Shown: piece by piece, positions 47,389-55,595 of the stretch
How the letters are laid out: every line of letters starts with the position of its first letter
How positions within the stretch are numbered: position 1 is the stretch's first letter
From: an uncultured Eubacteriales bacterium
GTDB taxonomy: Bacteria; Bacillota; Clostridia; Lachnospirales; Lachnospiraceae
Assembly: GCA_949289145.1 (NCBI GenBank)
Contig: CASEML010000062.1
Location: forward strand, 1-55,739
DNA: 55,739 nucleotides
Reading direction: 5' to 3'
Made by a program: the position numbers and the translations under genes
Notes under the pieces: generated by a model
Told to the model about the DNA's origin: nothing
Databases searched by the model: none
What the model saw: only the letters and a program-made list of their open reading frames with translations

Positions 47389-48018
47389 ATGAAAAAGGAA
47401 ACTGTGTATTTGAAATTGGAGCGGGATGTAAAAGTAATTAATTATGATGTGATGCTCAGTGATGTAGCGGCAATCAGCTGTAATGATAATACATTGGCGG
47501 CAAAAATAAAATGTATAAAATTATTTCAGATTCATGCAGAAAAATCAAAACGTGAGATTATTTCTGTGATTAAAGTGGTGGACAGTATCATTCGGGAATT
47601 TCCGGATGCAGAGATTCAGAGTATTGGAGAAATGGAATGTGTCGTGGAATATGTGGGAGATAAAAAGAAGCATAAGATATGGGATATGATAAAAATAATT
47701 TTTGTATCGCTGACTGCCTTTTTTGGAGCAGCATTTGCTATTATGACATTCAATGAAGATGTGTCAGTGACAGATGTATTTGGTAAGCTGTATACACTCG
47801 TATTTGGTGCAATGCCCGAAGGGCCAGGGCTTTTGGAATTGTCATATTCTATTGGTTTAGCTATGGGAATCATTCTTTTTTATAATCATATTGGTGGAAG
47901 AAGAATTACAAAGGATCCCACACCTATTGAGGTGCAGATGAGAATGTATGAAAATAATGTAAATGATGCATTGGTAGAGACTGCAAATAGAAAGGGGGAA
48001 CTTCTTGACGTTGATTAG
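47389..48018 (+). CDS. spoVAA: Stage V sporulation protein AA
   Basis: 209 residues. A soluble N-terminal part (about 1-95) is followed by two membrane helices (about 103-123 and 150-170), the SpoVAA layout. SpoVA proteins form the inner-membrane channel for dipicolinic acid in forespores. ATG 47389 is preceded by AGGTGAT. The C-terminal end overlaps the spoVAB start. Presence indicates a spore former. Confidence 0.88.
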   Translation: MKKETVYLKLERDVKVINYDVMLSDVAAISCNDNTLAAKIKCIKLFQIHAEKSKREIISVIKVVDSIIREFPDAEIQSIGEMECVVEYVGDKKKHKIWDMIKIIFVSLTAFFGAAFAIMTFNEDVSVTDVFGKLYTLVFGAMPEGPGLLELSYSIGLAMGIILFYNHIGGRRITKDPTPIEVQMRMYENNVNDALVETANRKGELLDVD

Positions 48019-48424
48019 GAATTTAATTATGATTGTGATCGGTTTATCCAGCGGAGTCATAGTATCTGGCGGAATGTTTACGGCATTGTTTACAGTGGGA
48101 TTAATTCCTAGATTTGCTGGAAAAACTCATACAGGTTCTCATGTGATGATATATGAGACAGCGGTGGTTTTCGGAACAATTTTGGGAAATTTAATTGGTA
48201 TGTATGAATATTCCCTGCCTTGTGGAAATCTATTGCTGGGAATGTTTGGACTTTTCTCGGGAATCTTTGTGGGATGTTTAGCGCTTGCCATCGCAGAGGC
48301 GTTCAATGGAATTCCCATTTTTGCAAGACGGATTAATTTTCGACGGGGACTGGGAATTTGGATACTGGCATTGGCAATTGGAAAAAGCATTGGAAATATT
48401 ATATATTTTTTTAATTTCCAGTAG
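48005..48424 (+). CDS. spoVAB: Stage V sporulation protein AB
   Basis: 139 residues with four membrane helices and the family stretch GLSSGVIVSGGMFTALFTVGLIPR (in two parts) and GNLIGMYEYSLPCG. TTG 48005 with a GGGGG site is used; it overlaps spoVAA by 14 bases, so translation is coupled. TTG 48011 is an alternative. Confidence 0.88.
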   Translation: MTLIRNLIMIVIGLSSGVIVSGGMFTALFTVGLIPRFAGKTHTGSHVMIYETAVVFGTILGNLIGMYEYSLPCGNLLLGMFGLFSGIFVGCLALAIAEAFNGIPIFARRINFRRGLGIWILALAIGKSIGNIIYFFNFQ

Positions 48425-48490
48425 CAAGATAGAGGGTTATGATTTTGCAGGAAGAAACAAATAATTGTAGGAAAAGAGGAATATAGACTT

Positions 48491-48946
48491 ATGAATGAAA
48501 TGCAAAAACAGAAATATAACGATTATGTGGAGCAGGTAACACCAAAAACCAATCTAATCTGTAATATGGTGAAAGCATTTATTACAGGTGGAATTATCTG
48601 TGTGATTGGGCAGGGCATTTTGAATTTTTGCTACGCACATGGATTGGACAAGGATACTTCAGGCAGCTGGTGCTCCATGTTGCTAGTATTATTAAGTGTG
48701 GTGCTTACTGGCTTTAATTTGTTTTCAAAGATTGTAGACTTTGGCGGGGCGGGGGCATTAGTGCCAATTACTGGTTTTGCAAATTCGGTGGCGGCGCCGG
48801 CAGTGGAGTACAAAACAGAAGGCCAGGTATTTGGAATTGGATGTAAGATATTTACAATTGCAGGTCCGGTAATATTGTACGGTATTGTTACAAGCTGGGC
48901 AGTAGGATTGATTTATTGGTTTTTGAAAGTGTTGGGGGTGATATAA
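48491..48946 (+). CDS. spoVAC: Stage V sporulation protein AC
   Basis: 151 residues. Conserved SpoVAC motifs are YVEQVTPKTNL, AFITGGIICVIGQ, DFGGAGALVPITGFANSV and GQVFGIGCKIFTIAGPVI. In Bacillus SpoVAC acts as a mechanosensitive channel for dipicolinate release. GAGGA precedes ATG 48491. The stop overlaps the next start by one base (TAATG). spoVAD and spoVAE, which normally follow, are not here. Confidence 0.94.
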   Translation: MNEMQKQKYNDYVEQVTPKTNLICNMVKAFITGGIICVIGQGILNFCYAHGLDKDTSGSWCSMLLVLLSVVLTGFNLFSKIVDFGGAGALVPITGFANSVAAPAVEYKTEGQVFGIGCKIFTIAGPVILYGIVTSWAVGLIYWFLKVLGVI

Positions 48947-49128
48947 TGAGCAGAGAAGAGGATATGCCATTGGGCTTAGGGTTTGGCCTAGCCATGAATG
49001 AGCAGGCAATGAACAGCTTTTCCTCTATGACAGATCCGGAAAAAAGACAGGTGATAGAAGCGGCAAGAAGTGTTCAGTCAAAAGCAGAAATGGAAAGTCT
49101 GATTCAGGATATTGCCAAAATGTCATAG
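48946..49128 (+). CDS. Small 60-residue protein coupled to spoVAC
   Basis: ATG 48946 overlaps the spoVAC stop (TAATG), with GGGGGTGAT as ribosome site, so this is almost certainly translated. The sequence has LGLGFGLAMNEQAMNSF and SSMTDPEKRQVIEAARSVQ, then a terminal helix. It resembles short Clostridia proteins with a GFGxALAQN-like start and helix-turn-helix-size length, of unknown function. It has no membrane helix. Its position suggests a sporulation or germination role. Confidence 0.7.
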   Translation: MSREEDMPLGLGFGLAMNEQAMNSFSSMTDPEKRQVIEAARSVQSKAEMESLIQDIAKMS

Positions 49129-49200
49129 CATGTATAGGAAGCATAATGCAAAATGAAATATATTGAAAAACAATAGAGATAAAAGTGAAAAAATGTTACA

Positions 49201-49241
49201 AAAAAGCAATGCCTTGTATAAAGATAAGACATTGCTTTTTT
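49201..49241 (-). terminator. Terminator of the first LytTR regulator
   Basis: AAAAAGCAATGCCTT and AAGACATTGCTTTTTT form a stem just past the stop of the minus-strand gene. It is nearly the same as the element at 50385-50428 and belongs to the duplicated unit. Confidence 0.8.
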
Positions 49242-49247
49242 AATGAA

Positions 49248-50000
49248 TTAAATTGAATTAAAACAGTCGTTTCGAAACCGTTTATTCAATTTAGGGTAAA
49301 AACTTCGGGAAACAGGAAGTGCAATAGTATTGTCCAAAACTACATTGTAATTTTTTACAAAGGTGATGTGAGAATAATTTACAATATAGCCCTGATGCAC
49401 CTGTACAAATTTCTGCATATCCAATTGGTTTTTCAATTCCTTAAAAGTTTGATATATGGTATAAGGTTTCTCTAAAGTATGTAAAATTGCCTGATTTCTA
49501 CGTTTTTCAATGTACAGAATTGAAGCAAATGGAATATGAAAAATTTTTCCTAACATGTTGAATGTAAGATATTTTTCGTCTGCAGTCATTCTGTCAACTA
49601 AATAGTCCACTGTTATAATCGCACGATTCATCTTTTTCTTCAAATCACTATAATTATAAGGCTTTAAAAGATAAGCAAGTGCATCAACTTCAAAAGCCGA
49701 AAGCGCAAAGTGGGGGTGATTTGTAGAAAATAAAAGAACCGTATGGGTGTCTATTTTTCTGATTTCTTTTGCAATATCCGTTCCTAAAATTTTTTGTCCA
49801 TTTATGACACCAAGTTCTACATCCAGAATAATTATGTGATAGAGGTTATGATTATTAAGACTGTCTATTAAATCCAATCCGGTGTTAAAATGAGAAGTTT
49901 TTAACTCTACCCCAGTTTCATCCTGATATGCGTCAAGGTATTCACAAATTTTTTGACGAAAGAGTGATTCATCATCACAAATAGCAATAGAGTAAGCCAT
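49248..50000 (-). CDS. LytTR response regulator, copy 1 (no adjacent peptide gene)
   Basis: 250 residues. ATG 50000 has AGGAGG; a 16-residue upstream extension has no site. Receiver with acidic CDDE, phosphoacceptor Asp60 in IIILDVELG, and KPYN; LytTR DNA-binding domain (about 145-245) with VQVHQGYIVN. By hand alignment it differs from copy 2 at about 34 of 250 positions (roughly 86% identity). It is the AgrA/ComE type. Differences cluster in the receiver's first half and in the region joining the domains, while the DNA-contact end is almost unchanged, so both copies probably bind the same sites. Confidence 0.9.
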   Translation of the reverse strand: MAYSIAICDDESLFRQKICEYLDAYQDETGVELKTSHFNTGLDLIDSLNNHNLYHIIILDVELGVINGQKILGTDIAKEIRKIDTHTVLLFSTNHPHFALSAFEVDALAYLLKPYNYSDLKKKMNRAIITVDYLVDRMTADEKYLTFNMLGKIFHIPFASILYIEKRRNQAILHTLEKPYTIYQTFKELKNQLDMQKFVQVHQGYIVNYSHITFVKNYNVVLDNTIALPVSRSFYPKLNKRFRNDCFNSI

Positions 50001-50105
50001 ATATCCTCCTAATGATTGTAAGTTACTTTTTAAAATGATAACGTACATTTAAGGAAAAATCTACCGTATTTTGAAAAACAGAAAACTGTTTCCTTTTCAA
50101 AAAAT

Positions 50106-50163
50106 AACATAATAAGACAAAAAAAGAAATAGGAAAAGTATAAATCGACGTTTATTTGGGATG
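50106..50163 (-). promoter_or_regulatory. Candidate LytTR-controlled promoter A (copy 1)
   Basis: On the minus strand, CGTCGA (50145-50150) is followed after exactly 33 bases by TATGTT (50106-50111) as a -10. The same spacing occurs at 51470-51514 and 52899-52943. The distal half (TATCAC in the others) is degenerate here. It would drive regulator copy 1. Confidence 0.55.
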
Positions 50164-50384
50164 AAATGCGGCATAAAATATATAAATAAAATAATATTAT
50201 TAAAACAAATTAAAAGTAGTTGCAAGAGGAGAAAGCTACATATACATATAAAAAACCCAAAGGCATTATTTCTGGTCAATAAATATTGCATTTTTCCGCA
50301 AATTGCTTATAATATAAATTAGAAAATAAAAATATTCTCACGTTGTTTTCTTACCCAATTGGTGTAAAAATGGTGTGGTAAGCC
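50164..50384. other. A/T-rich relic segment between regulator copies
   Basis: No supported gene. The first part (GATGAAATGCGGCATAAAA and on) resembles the sequence just before the histidine kinase start at 51582, so it is probably the decayed end of the duplicated unit. A hydrophobic minus-strand frame at 50097-50291 has no ribosome site and poor composition. Confidence 0.4.
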
Positions 50385-50428
50385 AAAAAAAGCAATGTCT
50401 TGGGTAAAGAGCAAGGCATTGCTTTTTT
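50385..50428 (-). terminator. Terminator of the second LytTR regulator
   Basis: AAAAAAGCAATGTCTT pairs with AAGGCATTGCTTTTTT; on the minus strand it ends in a U-run. It is a duplicate of the element at 49201-49241. Confidence 0.8.
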
Positions 50429-50434
50429 GATGCA

Positions 50435-51187
50435 TTAAATTGTATGAAAACAATCATTTCGGAACCGTTTGTTCAATTTGGGGTAAAAACTGCGGGAAAC
50501 AGGAAGTGTAATGGTATCATCCAAAACCACATTGTAATTTTTCACAAAGGTGATGTGAGAATAATTCACAATATAACCTTGATGTACCTGTACAAATTTC
50601 TGCATATCCAGCTGCTTTTTCAGTTCCTTGAAAGTTTGATATATGGTGTAATGTTTTTCTAAGGTATGTAAAATTACTTGGTTTTTATGTTTTTCGATGT
50701 ACAGAATAGAAGCAAAAGGGATATGAAAATTCTGCCCTGACATTTGGAATGTAAGGTACTTTTCATCTGAAGTCATCCTGTCTACTAAGTAGTCTACTGT
50801 TATGACCGCTCGATTCATTTTTTCTTTCAGATCACTGTAATTATAAGGCTTTAAGAGATAAGCAAGTGCATCAACTTCAAAAGCCGAGAGCGCAAAGTGG
50901 GAGTGATTCGTAGAAAATAGAAGAACCGTGTGAGTATCTAATTTTCTGATTTCTTTCGCAATATCTGTCCCTAATATTTCTTGTCCATTTATGATACCAA
51001 GTTCTACATCCAAAATGATAATGTGATAGAGGTTGTGGTGTTTTATACTATCTAATAAATCCAATCCGGTGTAAAAATGAGAAGTTTCTAACTCTATCTC
51101 GGCTTCACTCTGATATGTATCGAGGTATTCACAAATTTTTTCATGAAAGAGTGATTCGTCATCACAAATAGCAATAGAATACGCCAT
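50435..51187 (-). CDS. LytTR response regulator, copy 2 (downstream of the peptide gene)
   Basis: 250 residues, the paralogue of copy 1, with the same domains: receiver with CDDE, Asp60 in IIILDVELG and KPYN, and LytTR domain with VQVHQGYIVN and PVSRSFYPKLNKRF. AGGAGG lies before the ATG. It is 59 bases downstream of the double-glycine peptide gene and on the same strand, so they probably share promoter B. Its kinase is likely the GHKL protein encoded divergently at 51582. It is the most likely activator of the peptide and exporter promoters. Confidence 0.92.
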   Translation of the reverse strand: MAYSIAICDDESLFHEKICEYLDTYQSEAEIELETSHFYTGLDLLDSIKHHNLYHIIILDVELGIINGQEILGTDIAKEIRKLDTHTVLLFSTNHSHFALSAFEVDALAYLLKPYNYSDLKEKMNRAVITVDYLVDRMTSDEKYLTFQMSGQNFHIPFASILYIEKHKNQVILHTLEKHYTIYQTFKELKKQLDMQKFVQVHQGYIVNYSHITFVKNYNVVLDDTITLPVSRSFYPKLNKRFRNDCFHTI

Positions 51188-51246
51188 ATATCCTCCTAGT
51201 CATTGTATGTTATTTTTTTAAATGATAACGTACACGTAAAGAAAAA

Positions 51247-51408
51247 TCAATTGCCGTAAATTAATTTCTGGAAGAAACGACAGATTCTTTCAATGCTACC
51301 GCCATAACTATCACGTCCACCTTTTACTTCAGCAATTTCAGAAGTTGAAAGTGGTGCAATATGTGAGCTAAATGTAATATTTGCTAAATGAGTTTTTTGG
51401 TTATTCAT
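51247..51408 (-). CDS. Double-glycine leader peptide precursor (signal peptide or bacteriocin)
   Basis: 53 residues. ATG 51408 follows AAAGGAGAGG. The leader (1-31) ends LSTSEIAEVKGG, with hydrophobic/acidic spacing typical of GG leaders cut by C39 peptidases. The predicted mature peptide is 22 residues, starting RDSYGG and ending LIYGN, net charge about +2, with one Cys (ERICRFF). A later GG at 36-37 lacks the leader pattern. A C39 exporter gene lies 1.6 kb away. The single Cys argues against an intramolecular disulfide. No maturation enzyme gene (radical SAM, LanM, YcaO) is nearby, so it is probably unmodified. Pheromone or class II bacteriocin; the sensor-regulator neighbours favour a pheromone. 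Confidence 0.78.
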   Translation of the reverse strand: MNNQKTHLANITFSSHIAPLSTSEIAEVKGGRDSYGGSIERICRFFQKLIYGN

Positions 51409-51469
51409 GTATGTTCCTCTCCTTTCTGAATATTTGAAAAACAATGAATATTGTTTCATGTCAGAAATT

Positions 51470-51527
51470 AGCATAAAAAAGCGAAAAAGAAAATAGGATA
51501 AGGATATATCGACGTTTTGGAGTGATA
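51470..51527. promoter_or_regulatory. Candidate LytTR-controlled promoter B (peptide gene) and divergent operator
   Basis: The motif TCGACGTTTTGGAGTGATA (51509-51527) reads on the minus strand as TATCAC...CGTCGA, followed after 33 bases by TATGCT (51470-51475) as a -10 for the peptide-regulator unit. It is also 55 bases before the kinase start on the plus strand and could serve both. Confidence 0.6.
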
Positions 51528-51581
51528 AATGGCATTGAGAAAAATAAAAATAAAATATACGTATATAAAAGGAGAAAATGC

Positions 51582-52877
51582 ATGAGAATAATATGTAGTG
51601 TAATGATAATTATTATGACCTGGATTATCTATTATGTATGCTGTACGATAGTTTTGAATCCGAGATGGAAAGGTAAAATCGGGTCATTAAATTATGCAAT
51701 ATATGTGTGTATAAACTTAGTTGCTATAGAAATACTGGATAATAGCGACATGACATTTATTTTTGAAATTTTAATGCCCATTATATTTTTCAAAGGAAAA
51801 GTTTTAAAAAAAGAGATTATTTACTGGGCATCGGTGGTAGTTACCTCTTTCCTTGTACTATTTATAGATGCAATCATATGTAAAGTGATGGCAATTAGCA
51901 GCATGGAAATTGTAGAATATAGAATAACCGCAAGAATGGTCTTTGTGTTGGCATTGTTAATTTGCTATTACCTAGTTTCTTTTTTAAAGATAAAAATTGA
52001 TAACCGTTTCGCACTAATTCGCACGCCATCGCTGCTTCATTTTATTGTGGTAATGTTTATGCTGGTTACTATCATCTGTTTTCTAGTACAGATTTACAAG
52101 TATGAACTGGCAGAAGAAGTACTTGAGGGAATTGAGGATGCTACCTGCGGAATCTTTATATTAGTAATTATTATAGAGATGATTTCTTTTGAAATTCTCA
52201 AAAGTGCTATCTTTCAAGCGAAAAGATACGCAGAAGAAAAGACAAAACTAGAAATGTATGAAATGCAGAGAAACCATTATCGGCTGACCACAGAACAAAT
52301 TAAGAAGTTGTCTGCTTTGCGTCACGATTTTAAAAATCACTTATATGTGATTGCAGAAAGAATCCGCAGGTCAGAATATGAGGAGGCAATTTCCTATATT
52401 GATAAGATAGGTGCGTGTACCGAAGAGGCAAGCACCATTGTGGTGGCGGAGAATGAAATACTATCAACTATATTGACGGTTAAAAATACGATTTGTAAAA
52501 ATAATGACATATCATTTGATTATGAAATAAACTGTGGCAAAATACATATAGAAGATATGGACTTAAATACAGTGGTGTCAAACCTGTTGGATAATGCTAT
52601 TGAAGCCAGTGAAAAATGTGAAATGAATCAGCGGAAAATAGTATTTAAAATTAAAGAGATAAAGCAGTTTCTGGCGATTGAATGTAGCAATACATGTAAA
52701 ATGAAAGAGACAGCAAAGAAACACATATTTCAAACCACGAAAGAAAATAAAGAAGAACATGGATATGGAATTGAAAATATAAAAGAGACGGTAGAAAAGT
52801 ATGGTGGACAGGCAGAGTTTACCTGCCAATCGGGAGTCTTTTATGCCAAAATCATGGTGGAAAATAATTTGTATTGA
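51582..52877 (+). CDS. GHKL (AgrC/ComD-type) sensor histidine kinase
   Basis: 431 residues. ATG 51582 has AAAAGGAG 7 bases upstream; earlier codons in frame have none. The N-terminal half (about 1-205) has about six membrane helices, a pheromone-receptor-like sensor. The kinase core has LRHDFKNHLYVI with phosphoacceptor His near 248, the N-box SNLLDNAIEA near 336, and HGYGIENIKETVEKYGG (G-box). This is the HPK10 class that pairs with LytTR regulators and senses peptides. It is divergent from the peptide-regulator unit, with operator B between them. Confidence 0.92.
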   Translation: MRIICSVMIIIMTWIIYYVCCTIVLNPRWKGKIGSLNYAIYVCINLVAIEILDNSDMTFIFEILMPIIFFKGKVLKKEIIYWASVVVTSFLVLFIDAIICKVMAISSMEIVEYRITARMVFVLALLICYYLVSFLKIKIDNRFALIRTPSLLHFIVVMFMLVTIICFLVQIYKYELAEEVLEGIEDATCGIFILVIIIEMISFEILKSAIFQAKRYAEEKTKLEMYEMQRNHYRLTTEQIKKLSALRHDFKNHLYVIAERIRRSEYEEAISYIDKIGACTEEASTIVVAENEILSTILTVKNTICKNNDISFDYEINCGKIHIEDMDLNTVVSNLLDNAIEASEKCEMNQRKIVFKIKEIKQFLAIECSNTCKMKETAKKHIFQTTKENKEEHGYGIENIKETVEKYGGQAEFTCQSGVFYAKIMVENNLY

Positions 52878-52885
52878 TTGCCGAA

Positions 52886-52943
52886 TATCACATAAAAACG
52901 TCGAAATAACACATAATGCTTCTGGCACCCAAATAATTGTGCT
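52886..52943 (+). promoter_or_regulatory. Candidate LytTR-controlled promoter C (exporter)
   Basis: TATCACATAAAAACGTCGA (52886-52904) shares its ends and spacing with site B, and TGTGCT (52938-52943) follows after 33 bases as a -10-like element. The predicted transcript start is near 52950, 29 bases before the exporter ATG. Confidence 0.6.
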
Positions 52944-52950
52944 ACATTTA

Positions 52951-52972
52951 CTCCTATCAAAAAGGATAGGAG
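52951..52972 (+). promoter_or_regulatory. Hairpin burying the exporter ribosome site
   Basis: CTCCTATC (52951-52958) pairs perfectly with GATAGGAG (52965-52972) over a 6-base loop. The right arm contains the AGGAG ribosome site of the ATG at 52979. With a transcript start near 52950 the hairpin would be the first thing on the messenger. Confidence 0.55.
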
Positions 52973-52978
52973 AATGTT

Positions 52979-55123
52979 ATGGGATATACATATGTAAAAC
53001 AACATGACACTACAGACTGCGGAGCAGCTTGTATGGCGATGATTTGCTCCTACTATAAAAAACATACTAGTTTGACTTTGCTTAGAGATTTAATGGGAAC
53101 AGATGACTGCGGAACAAATCTGATGGGAATGCAGCATTGTGCCAAAACGCTGGGATTTAATTCTCAGGCGGTACGGGTGGACAAAGAGGGCTTTTTCAGT
53201 AAGTATCCATTGCCGGCGGTGGCCAATATTGTCACAAAGAAAGGTTTTTCTCATTTTGTGGTAATATTCAAAATAAACAATGATCGAGTAATTATCGGTG
53301 ACCCTGCCAAACGAATTTTGTCGGTAAAAATAGATGAGTTTTTTCAGAAATTTACCGGTATTTTAATGTTGTTGGAGCCAGGGGAAGAATTTACAGCAGA
53401 AAAAAAGAAGAGAAAGAGCATTTTCTCCTACTGTAAACAATGGCTGTATCCACACCGGAAGCTATTTCTAGGGGGCGTGGCTGCTATGGCAGCGGCATTA
53501 ATTTTGCAGCTGTCAGTAAGTGTGTTTTATTACATTATATACAATAAAGTACTACCTTCTGGCAGCACCGATACGCTGTTATTCTGTCTGGCAATTTTTC
53601 TTGTGGTGGTTTTAGCGCAAAGTGCTGTTGTTTTTTTACAAAAATGGCTAATAAGTAAGCTTTCAAAGAAAATAGATATACCTTTGATGTCAAGGTATGT
53701 GGAACACATTTACCATCTTCCGGTAAGATTTTTTGCTACCCGTAGAACAGGTGATATGGTCAATCGTGTATCAGATGCTTTTGCAATTAAGGAATTATAT
53801 ACTCAGACGGCGCCTGCTTGTATAGTGAATCTTGGGATGGTGCTGTTAAGTGGATTAGTAATGTTTCAGGTAAACAGTAAGCTGTTTACGGTGTGCGTGT
53901 TGATGAATGGCTTTATTGCTATATGCATACTCTTTACCCAAAAAAAGCTAGGAAACTGGAAAGAAAAGCAGGTACAGCAAAGTTCAGAGGTATCCTCTCA
54001 GATGGTGGAGGGGATTTTTGCTATGGAAACTTTGAAAGCAAATGCCGGAGAAAAAGCGCAGATACAGTCTATAAAATCAGAGTACGGAAAGCTAATCGAG
54101 TTAGAGTACAAAATGGGAAAGTTATGTAATTTACAGCACAGCCTGCAGGAAGTTATATCTGGTGCAGGAAATTTGTTATTTTTATATTATGGAATTACGC
54201 AGATGATGAATGATCGTCTGTCACTGGGAAGTATGATGGCATTTATGGCTTTGTCCGGATTGTTTCAGGAACCGTTTCAGCAATTGACACAGATGCGGTA
54301 TGCTGTAAAAGAAGCGGATATTTCTATAAAAAGAGTGGCAGAAGTACTGGAATATCCGGTGGAGGAAAATGAGGAACTGAAGCAGCTGTCTGATATTCAA
54401 GGGAATGTGGCGTTTGAGCATGTAACCTTTCGATATGGTGTGGGAGAACCTGTGTTGCAGGATATTAGTTTTCAGATTCCCAAAGGAAAAAAAGTGGCTC
54501 TAGTAGGCGGCAGTGGAAGCGGAAAAAGTACCATTGCCAAGCTTCTGTTAAGATATTATGATACGGAGCAGGGAGATGTATTTATTGAGGGAACCAGTGT
54601 CAAGCAGTATTCGCACAGTTCCATAAGAGAAGGTATTGCATATGTACCGCAAACAATGCAGCTGTTCTCAAAAAGCATTTATGACAATATTCGTATCAGC
54701 AGACCGGGGGCTACCGATGAAGAAGTGATCGAGGCTGCAAAAAGTGCAGGGGCTCATGAATTTATTTCCCGCTTGCCCAAGCAGTATGATACCTGTTTAG
54801 AAGAAGGGGGAACTGGCTTAAGTGTGGGAGAAAAACAAAGAATTGTACTGGCAAGAGCTTTTTTGAAAAAAAGCAGTTTTTGGATTTTGGATGAAAGCAC
54901 CAGTAATTTAGATTACCGCACAGAACATGAAGTTTTTTCTAGAATTTACAAAGAATATCCAAATGCATCCATGTTGATTATAGCCCATCGTTTGGCTACG
55001 GTCAGAGAATGTGATGAAATACTGGTGTTAAATAAGGGAAGAATTGTGGAACGGGGAAATCATGAAGAACTGCTTAAGGCGGGCGGTTATTATTCCGAAC
55101 TTTGGGGGATGCAGACATGTTGA
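52979..55123 (+). CDS. Peptidase-containing bacteriocin/pheromone ABC exporter (PCAT)
   Basis: 714 residues in three modules. C39 peptidase (about 1-130): Cys14 in TTDCGAACMA, His in GFSHFVVI, Asp in IIGDPAK. Membrane domain (about 150-440) with six helices. ATPase domain (about 470-714): Walker A GGSGSGKST, signature LSVGEKQR (variant of LSGGQ), Walker B FWILDEST, H-loop IIAHRL. It cleaves GG leaders and exports the peptide. The substrate is presumably the 53-residue precursor at 51247-51408. No HlyD-type accessory gene follows, as is common in clostridial PCATs. Control by promoter C would make export part of the same autoinduction loop. Confidence 0.95.
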   Translation: MGYTYVKQHDTTDCGAACMAMICSYYKKHTSLTLLRDLMGTDDCGTNLMGMQHCAKTLGFNSQAVRVDKEGFFSKYPLPAVANIVTKKGFSHFVVIFKINNDRVIIGDPAKRILSVKIDEFFQKFTGILMLLEPGEEFTAEKKKRKSIFSYCKQWLYPHRKLFLGGVAAMAAALILQLSVSVFYYIIYNKVLPSGSTDTLLFCLAIFLVVVLAQSAVVFLQKWLISKLSKKIDIPLMSRYVEHIYHLPVRFFATRRTGDMVNRVSDAFAIKELYTQTAPACIVNLGMVLLSGLVMFQVNSKLFTVCVLMNGFIAICILFTQKKLGNWKEKQVQQSSEVSSQMVEGIFAMETLKANAGEKAQIQSIKSEYGKLIELEYKMGKLCNLQHSLQEVISGAGNLLFLYYGITQMMNDRLSLGSMMAFMALSGLFQEPFQQLTQMRYAVKEADISIKRVAEVLEYPVEENEELKQLSDIQGNVAFEHVTFRYGVGEPVLQDISFQIPKGKKVALVGGSGSGKSTIAKLLLRYYDTEQGDVFIEGTSVKQYSHSSIREGIAYVPQTMQLFSKSIYDNIRISRPGATDEEVIEAAKSAGAHEFISRLPKQYDTCLEEGGTGLSVGEKQRIVLARAFLKKSSFWILDESTSNLDYRTEHEVFSRIYKEYPNASMLIIAHRLATVRECDEILVLNKGRIVERGNHEELLKAGGYYSELWGMQTC

Positions 55124-55253: not shown

Positions 55254-55595
55254 ATGAAGAAAAAATTAATAAAAGTAGTGATGAGTGGATTGGCAGGCAT
55301 AATGATTATAGGTTCAGTGTATATTCCGACTAATGGAATGACATTATTTTATGCGAACAAAGGAAGAAGAAATACAAAAGTGTTTGTGGAAGCAAAATTT
55401 ACACCAAATGTAAAAACCACTTCTACGGAATATGGTCTTAAAAAAGGAAAATATGTAAAAAAAGTTACCATCAGACTGAAGGAAGGAAGCTACAATAAGA
55501 CAAAATCGGATACGAAAGGTTATTTAATTAAATTGGAAAAAACAAATAATCCTACAAAAACATCTAGTGGTTCATGGACTTGGACATATAAATAA
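55254..55595 (+). CDS. Small secreted protein of unknown function
   Basis: 113 residues, ATG with GGAGGG upstream. A signal peptide (about 1-34: KKKLIKVVMS, hydrophobic GLAGIMIIGSVYI, cleavage probably after LFYA) leads to a basic, Lys/Thr-rich mature part of about 79 residues, beta-like and Cys-free, ending SGSWTWTYK. I do not recognise a family. It could be immunity, bacteriocin or unrelated; position beside the exporter is the only link. It is not a GG peptide, so it would leave by the Sec pathway. Confidence 0.7.
   Translation: MKKKLIKVVMSGLAGIMIIGSVYIPTNGMTLFYANKGRRNTKVFVEAKFTPNVKTTSTEYGLKKGKYVKKVTIRLKEGSYNKTKSDTKGYLIKLEKTNNPTKTSSGSWTWTYK

Follow-up and report, generated by a model that had tools for sequence, protein, structure and literature searches.

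What kind of signaling system is formed by a small peptide gene, two response regulators (RRs), a sensor kinase and a peptide exporter that lie together in the genome of an uncultured member of the Lachnospiraceae? The locus occupies positions 49248-55123 of the window, by which we mean the whole stretch of 55,739 nucleotides that was analysed (contig C62 of a 2.93-Mb genome in 170 contigs, with a completeness of 88%). Four kinds of parts, all intact, are contained in its 5.9 kb. The minus strand, read from right to left, encodes a peptide precursor of 53 amino acids (aa) and the two LytTR regulators RR1 and RR2, and the plus strand encodes a GHKL kinase and a C39 peptidase-containing ABC exporter (PCAT). 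An earlier note on this DNA had described a double-glycine precursor of 53 residues, two LytTR regulators, a multi-helix GHKL kinase and a PCAT exporter within 6 kb, and we recovered each of them where it had placed them; its phrase “gut Clostridium” should read Lachnospiraceae. We consider it highly probable that the locus encodes an autoinduction loop driven by a linear double-glycine peptide pheromone, of the kind represented by ComCDE, Blp and Pln, that its peptide is restricted to this lineage and that no output is linked to it. This interpretation, which agrees with the linear-peptide circuit proposed in the note, is favored because all four kinds of parts are intact, the peptide is conserved in a relative (G300) and has decayed together with the loss of the exporter in another (G299), both promoter regions carry LytTR-type repeats with a fixed -10-like register, related regulators adjoin double-glycine peptides, and ComE is the best solved relative of the regulator.

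The precursor gene (51247-51408, minus strand) was identified from the list of open reading frames (ORFs), a double-glycine scan and comparison with its orthologue, and is preceded by the ribosome site GAAAGGAG. Its 31-aa leader, MNNQKTHLANITFSSHIAPLSTSEIAEVKGG (51316-51408), follows the pattern LSxxExxxVxGG; the consensus of double-glycine leaders is LSxxELxxIxGG. The predicted mature peptide, RDSYGGSIERICRFFQKLIYGN (51250-51315), has 22 aa and a single conserved cysteine, Cys43. The scan asked for a length of 30-130 aa, a ribosome site and a motif of the double-glycine type, and exactly one ORF in the whole 55.7-kb window, the precursor, passed it. Against the orthologue in G300, which belongs to the same genus, 40 of the 53 residues are identical, including all of LSTSEIAEVKGG and the segment ERICRFFQKLI of the mature part. 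The ratio of nonsynonymous to synonymous change (dN/dS) in this comparison amounts to 0.165 for the whole frame and is higher in the leader (0.238) than in the mature part (0.088), with changes at 16.5 of 33.2 synonymous sites versus 15.5 of 125.8 nonsynonymous sites (Fisher test on rounded counts, p = 2.6e-5). The frame thus goes beyond what chance would give, since it is the sole match of the scan in the window and shows an excess of synonymous change, and the comparison with G300 indicates a real gene under purifying selection. In line with the statement in the earlier note that the peptide belongs to no recognised family, no Pfam or NCBIfam family matched it at cut-off.

The kinase (431 aa; 51582-52877, plus strand) matches PF14501 with an E value of 4.1e-24 and is of the HPK10-like type. 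Five, six or seven hydrophobic membrane segments are predicted, depending on the threshold. We favor a start at the ATG at 51582 over the GTG at 51522 given in the ORF list because of the ribosome site AAAAGGAG and the frame in G299. The exporter (714 aa; 52979-55123, plus strand) matches PF03412 over cut-off (2e-34) as well as ABC_membrane and ABC_tran, and scores 507.9 bits against TIGR01193, slightly below the cut-off of 523.85. The solved structures related to it are PCAT1 and ComA. In the alignment with PCAT1 (4RY2; E 1.1e-143), the Cys, His and Asp that we take to be the catalytic residues are all matched, so that the C39 residues are indeed intact, as previously claimed. Both genes are conserved in G300, with dN/dS values of 0.065 for the kinase and 0.098 for the exporter.

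A 33-bp element containing two direct repeats of 12 bases each is common to the gap between the divergent peptide and kinase genes (51501-51533) and the exporter promoter (52880-52912, where the repeat reads on the minus strand). Both elements were identified by repeat matching and an operator model, and have a 12-9-12 arrangement with a phase of 21 bp. At the five such sites in the window, G300 and G299, the two repeats agree at 7, 8, 9, 5 and 9 of 12 positions, a mean of 7.6 in a register that was initially chosen by eye and over sites that are partly orthologues rather than independent; the same sites at 13 other phases (14-20 and 22-27) gave means of 2.2-4.2. At least 7 of 12 matches were reached at 4.3% of random places in the operator region. 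A -10-like element begins exactly 25 bases past the operator in six of six promoters. These are not six independent cases, as one is a duplicate and the others are versions of two promoters from up to three related genomes. In the window the -10-like elements are TATGCTAA for the peptide promoter (51468-51475, minus strand) and TGTGCTAC for the exporter promoter (52938-52945, plus strand). The form TRTGCTA is found in four of the six (exporter and peptide promoters of the window and of G300), and the two others differ by one change (CATGCTA in the G299 peptide promoter, TATGTTA in the copy before RR2). Direct repeats in 21-bp phase are the usual LytTR geometry, and we regard those at the circuit's own promoters as predicted operators. 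LytTR-type repeats in both promoter regions support autoinduction.

RR1 (50435-51187) and RR2 (49248-50003), both on the minus strand, each combine a receiver with a LytTR domain (PF04397, E values of 1.2e-21 and 9.3e-21, respectively), and the best solved match to RR1 is ComE (4CBV, E 2.1e-9). Only 59 bases separate the peptide gene from RR1 and both stand behind one operator. This short gap, together with terminator-like, T-tailed hairpins after RR1 (50386-50428, -16.9 kcal/mol) and after RR2 (49199-49242, -18.1 kcal/mol), both on the minus strand, makes it look as if peptide and RR1 form one operon, with RR1 as its second gene, and RR2 a second unit; a simple terminator scan that accepts only loops of 3-8 misses these hairpins. 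The two regulators are tandem duplicates with 87% identity at the protein level and 86% at the DNA level over 863 columns. They differ mainly by silent changes (dN/dS 0.094), and each is conserved in comparison with G300 (0.055 for RR1, 0.051 for RR2). Between them lies a remnant (50049-50437, minus strand) that matches the peptide promoter at 74% over 129 columns and then continues with the bases just before the regulator; the peptide gene is missing. This remnant includes a degenerate operator copy (50137-50169, minus strand) with 6 of 12 repeat matches, which scores 12.6 bits in the operator model, at an E value of 0.64 for one genome. The synonymous distance between the two regulators, 0.65, is lower than that to the G300 orthologue (1.39 and 1.22), and RR1 and RR2 pair as sisters in the regulator tree (support 97/90). 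Because of the promoter copy lacking a peptide gene, the lower synonymous distance and the tree placement, we conclude from the sequences that RR2 is a later tandem duplicate within the lineage of the window, and that the second peptide gene was lost afterwards.

From these parts we infer cleavage, secretion, sensing, phosphorylation and activation as the steps of a loop. Leaky expression of the peptide-RR1 operon would supply precursor to the exporter, the C39 domain would cleave it after the double glycine, and the linear 22-mer would build up outside the cell. The GHKL kinase may then sense the external peptide and phosphorylate RR1, and probably RR2. A dimer of the phosphorylated regulator could bind the repeats phased at 21 bp and recruit RNA polymerase to a promoter whose -35 region is weak. 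The peptide-RR1 operon and the exporter, and probably also the divergent kinase gene, would thereby be raised together in a positive feedback, which RR2 may either amplify or dampen, the latter in the manner of PlnD. Peptide, operator and promoter register are all defined in this locus, and can be tested by means of a reporter and a single synthetic peptide.

The distribution of the locus was examined in a set of five genomes from the genus, including that of the window (G000). Upstream of the locus, at 47389-49128, are genes that we take to be spoVA-like, and the full locus is present at this same position in one of the four other genomes, G300. In G299 (L073, contig C120, 9250-10842) the regulator (69% identity) and the kinase (54% identity to that of the window) are open at the spoVA position and the exporter is gone. 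The G299 peptide is a pseudogene of the same length, in which codon 38 is an in-frame stop and the double glycine is lost. An operator-like sequence, AAAAACGTCGAATT, remains behind the G299 kinase despite the loss of the exporter; the operator-like sequence after this kinase, which lies outside the five-site set, has 1 of 12 repeat matches. In G276, spoVAC is present with no such locus behind it, and the contig of G301 ends about 130 bases past spoVAC and is uninformative for this position; the best regulators in these two genomes are 30% identical. The earlier note had suggested a check of co-occurrence in relatives: the 53-residue frame is kept in one genome with kinase and exporter (G300) and lost in one without the exporter (G299), i.e., one case on each side. 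This fits the idea that exporter and peptide stand and fall together, as judged from three genomes with any locus. A possible second copy (L002, contig C117, E 0.73) was dropped after its sequence had been inspected.

More distant kin were sought with the regulator in 397 genomes of the family, with at most six candidates scored in each, and 62 genomes, including the own, matched at E<=1e-25. We examined the best five regulators outside the own genome (loci L122-L126, 30-39% identity) and two weaker ones (L127 and L128). The regulator tree has 28 rows and places the clade of the window in one set of 11 rows together with G008, G139, G143, G311 and G328, and also G265 (support 95/97). In three of the seven loci, L122 (G008), L125 (G311) and L126 (G139), a short double-glycine peptide adjoins the kinase and regulator genes, as in the window (that of L125 was read by eye). 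Repeats of the 21-bp type, with the half-site GTGCTATTTGGT, precede the kinases in these three loci and in L124, as judged by eye. Unlike the window, the three loci also have double-glycine bacteriocin-like ORFs and an exporter alongside (truncated in L122), the half-site differs, and the mature peptides have no obvious motif in common with ours. These loci look like a wider family of bacteriocin-inducing circuits, and suggest that double-glycine signaling associated with bacteriocins may be more widespread in the Lachnospiraceae.

Several observations weigh against the interpretation as an autoinduction loop, in addition to the by-eye choice of the operator register and the partial orthology of the five sites. 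The whole locus was found in a single relative, and the peptide operator of G300 has only 5 of 12 repeat matches. A peptide search of 299 family genomes, a sample outside which G300 falls, recovered the own genome only. A two-row peptide profile run over 392 genomes of the order found the own genome alone with confidence (2.4e-39), and 28 others at E 0.007-0.1, several of them in broken or tiny frames. A peptide scan of genome contigs with 362 candidate stretches yielded one locus, in a metagenome-assembled genome of a Lachnospiraceae bacterium from goat colon (contig C54 of G300). A convincing double-glycine peptide was missing from four of the seven loci fetched with the regulator (L123, L124, L127 and L128; L124 ends before a readable peptide, and a match with a TTG start in L127 was discounted). 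It was also missing from all seven loci fetched with the kinase (L040-L046; the single scan match, at 8582-8755 in L040, was discounted). The latter search covered the same number of family genomes, 397, with at most the four best candidates scored in each, and gave eight matches at E<=1e-30, the own included, the other seven with 26-33% identity. Finally, an agr-linked regulator (G300_agr) falls inside the same 11-row set of the tree, none of the ORFs of the locus was recognised as an accessory export protein, and no output gene is linked to it. No relative of the peptide was found on the plasmids searched, and a search of viral contigs with the regulator gave 14 pattern stretches and no relative. 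On these results the peptide appears to be lineage-restricted.

We also considered whether the 22-residue peptide could be a small bacteriocin in its own right, which the locus exports and controls by feedback, rather than a signal only. Plantaricin A is reportedly such a case of bacteriocin and signal in one. The peptide has a net charge of +2 and is more amphipathic than three peptides from other genera (maximum hydrophobic moment of 0.96 in 11 residues, 0.93 in G300, versus 0.54-0.67), and the locus has a dedicated exporter and no other output. However, the precursor had no bacteriocin-family match in Pfam or NCBIfam up to E 0.1, Bacteriocin_IIc included, and inspection by eye, with no family search made, revealed no immunity gene among the ORFs of the locus, either in the window or in G300. 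Moreover, the peptide sits where other Lachnospiraceae loci with separate bacteriocin-like ORFs have their short double-glycine peptides, and we find this explanation unlikely. It is more improbable still that the kinase senses something else and that the short ORF is a passenger substrate of the exporter or a chance frame. The open regulator and kinase genes of G299 imply that these two can outlive the peptide, but the purifying selection seen with G300, the location of the peptide gene 59 bases from RR1 behind a shared operator, and the double-glycine peptides beside related regulators in three of the seven loci all speak against it.

Peptide quorum sensing in the Lachnospiraceae, a dominant family in the gut, is usually discussed in terms of agr, and an agr-type system in which the peptide is cyclised through Cys43 would be in keeping with the single conserved cysteine. 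The kinase and RR1 are distant kin of AgrC and AgrA (NCBIfam E values of 7.4e-9 and 1e-9, far under cut-off), and an agr locus in G276 has the same operator core. We nevertheless consider this scenario very improbable, as the locus has a double-glycine leader and a C39 exporter instead, and no AgrB match was found on its contig in either genome: the AgrB genes of the own genome are on C68, C168 and C162 and those of G300 on C43, C19 and C34, with none on C62 or C54. The distinction from AgrBD drawn in the earlier note thus stands for the locus, and the genome has AgrB on three other contigs. The locus would therefore represent an extra channel and not a replacement of agr.

If the loop proposed here is compared with known systems, ComCDE/ComAB of Streptococcus pneumoniae likewise combines a signal, a kinase, a regulator and a C39 exporter in a core locus without bacteriocin genes. 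Its exporter, ComAB, is a separate operon with the accessory protein ComB, unlike here. The structures of ComA and ComE are matched by the exporter and the regulator of the window. The pln regulon has an inducing peptide and a kinase, as in our case. PlnABCD of Lactobacillus plantarum also includes two homologous LytTR-type regulators, and in their sites a 12-bp spacer separates 9-bp repeats (21-bp phase) that lie immediately before the -35 and -10 elements, similar to the operators described here (PMC2714321). PlnC and PlnD are 59% identical and act in opposite ways from one operon, whereas RR1 and RR2 are 87% identical and each stands behind its own promoter copy; furthermore, pln has linked bacteriocins, in contrast to the locus in the window (PMC2714321). 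The gallocin system GSP-BlpH-BlpR(-BlpS) of Streptococcus gallolyticus resembles the locus in having a double-glycine inducing peptide (24 aa), a kinase and a LytTR regulator, and is also similar in its 30-bp operator and in that some co-induced operons are located elsewhere in the genome (PMC8545106). Here, both regulators are full length, whereas BlpS is a LytTR-only repressor (PMC8545106). A ComD-ComE pair is reported to be present in clostridia (PMC8895600), which fits a known kind. Among the matches listed for the open-licence PMC literature, no title or abstract start described such a circuit in the Lachnospiraceae, and the apparent wider family of bacteriocin-inducing circuits did not come up either. 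The kind is known. What appears to be new within the scope searched is the family of the peptide, its operator, a layout that stands alone and the recent duplication of a full-length regulator.

What, then, might the circuit control? The operator model, which uses only sequence and was built from the five sites in the window, G300 and G299, was run over the five genus genomes, with 150 of 534-688 candidates per genome scored in a first pass. It returned 11 matches at E<=10, among them, as the only significant ones, the five training sites (E<=1.4e-5), and also the copy before RR2 (0.64), the best other match being at 0.25. By the full model, the circuit would control itself, with nothing else visible in the assembly. 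Exact matches to the 13-mer AAAAYGTCGAWAT are in excess over a reversed-pattern control in the own genome only (5 vs 1); the counts are 2 vs 2 in G300 (both in the locus), 0 vs 3 in G299, 1 vs 1 in G301 (on contig C121, L075) and 1 vs 2 in G276. The five own sites are the two operators of the locus, C2:9298, C149:39137 and C9:344, and six own matches with one mismatch lie outside the locus, C149 among those.

The site at C2:9298 is located 95 bases before a second C39 exporter (53% identity), followed by double-glycine peptides, one of them over the Bacteriocin_IIc cut-off. That at C149:39137 precedes a broken copy of the C2 exporter and then a two-peptide lanthipeptide cluster. Both sites keep the promoter-proximal half-site, with TTGACA present and TATAAT beginning 26 bases past the element. 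The full 33-bp model at E<=10 lists neither of them in the five genomes, and their repeats match at only 2 and 5 of 12 positions; degenerate left (distal) repeats are reported for some pln promoters too (PMC2714321). Counting against them, the promoter and broken exporter on C149 are paralogous to those on C2, which makes them one case, and the same core is found in the agr locus of G276. The two antimicrobial loci are therefore candidate outputs only, and we refrain from assigning them to the regulon. A bolder hypothesis, which we regard as doubtful, is that one linear pheromone commands two unlinked and chemically different weapons, namely the two-peptide lanthipeptide cluster on C149 and a bacteriocin cluster of class IIc-like type on C2. 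Both would have been captured by way of promoters in which the -10 element and the proximal half-site stay in register, and the regulator would have been doubled in this lineage alone.

As for the composition of these clusters, that on C2 (L024, 1400-9325) has near-identical leaders, with MEMTYDGMLVMPSSYAVMDEEEMTYVEGG in two ORFs and variants ending in EAG in two others, and exporter fragments are interspersed. The cluster on C149 (L028, 7823-17165) is of class II, with two LanM proteins and precursors of the plantaricin C family and the LchA2/BrtA2 family, all over cut-off, and a C39-type exporter. The agr locus of G276 (L074, contig C39, 8500-10896; AgrB at C39:27018-27548) contains an AgrD-like frame, identified by eye, that ends in ACIWLAYQPEFPEEACKFKKMVK. 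A 21-bp direct repeat with 9 of 12 matches is present in the promoter of this agr locus and includes the core TTTCGACATTTT, which is also found at C2 and C149. None of the five exact AAAAYGTCGAWAT sites is on the own contigs with AgrB. Directly behind the exporter of the window and near the contig end, a 113-aa ORF (55254-55595) opens with a signal-peptide-like start. It reaches the cut-off of no family, with a weak match to Iron_transport (E 0.019), and no counterpart was seen at the corresponding place in the orthologous G300 locus.

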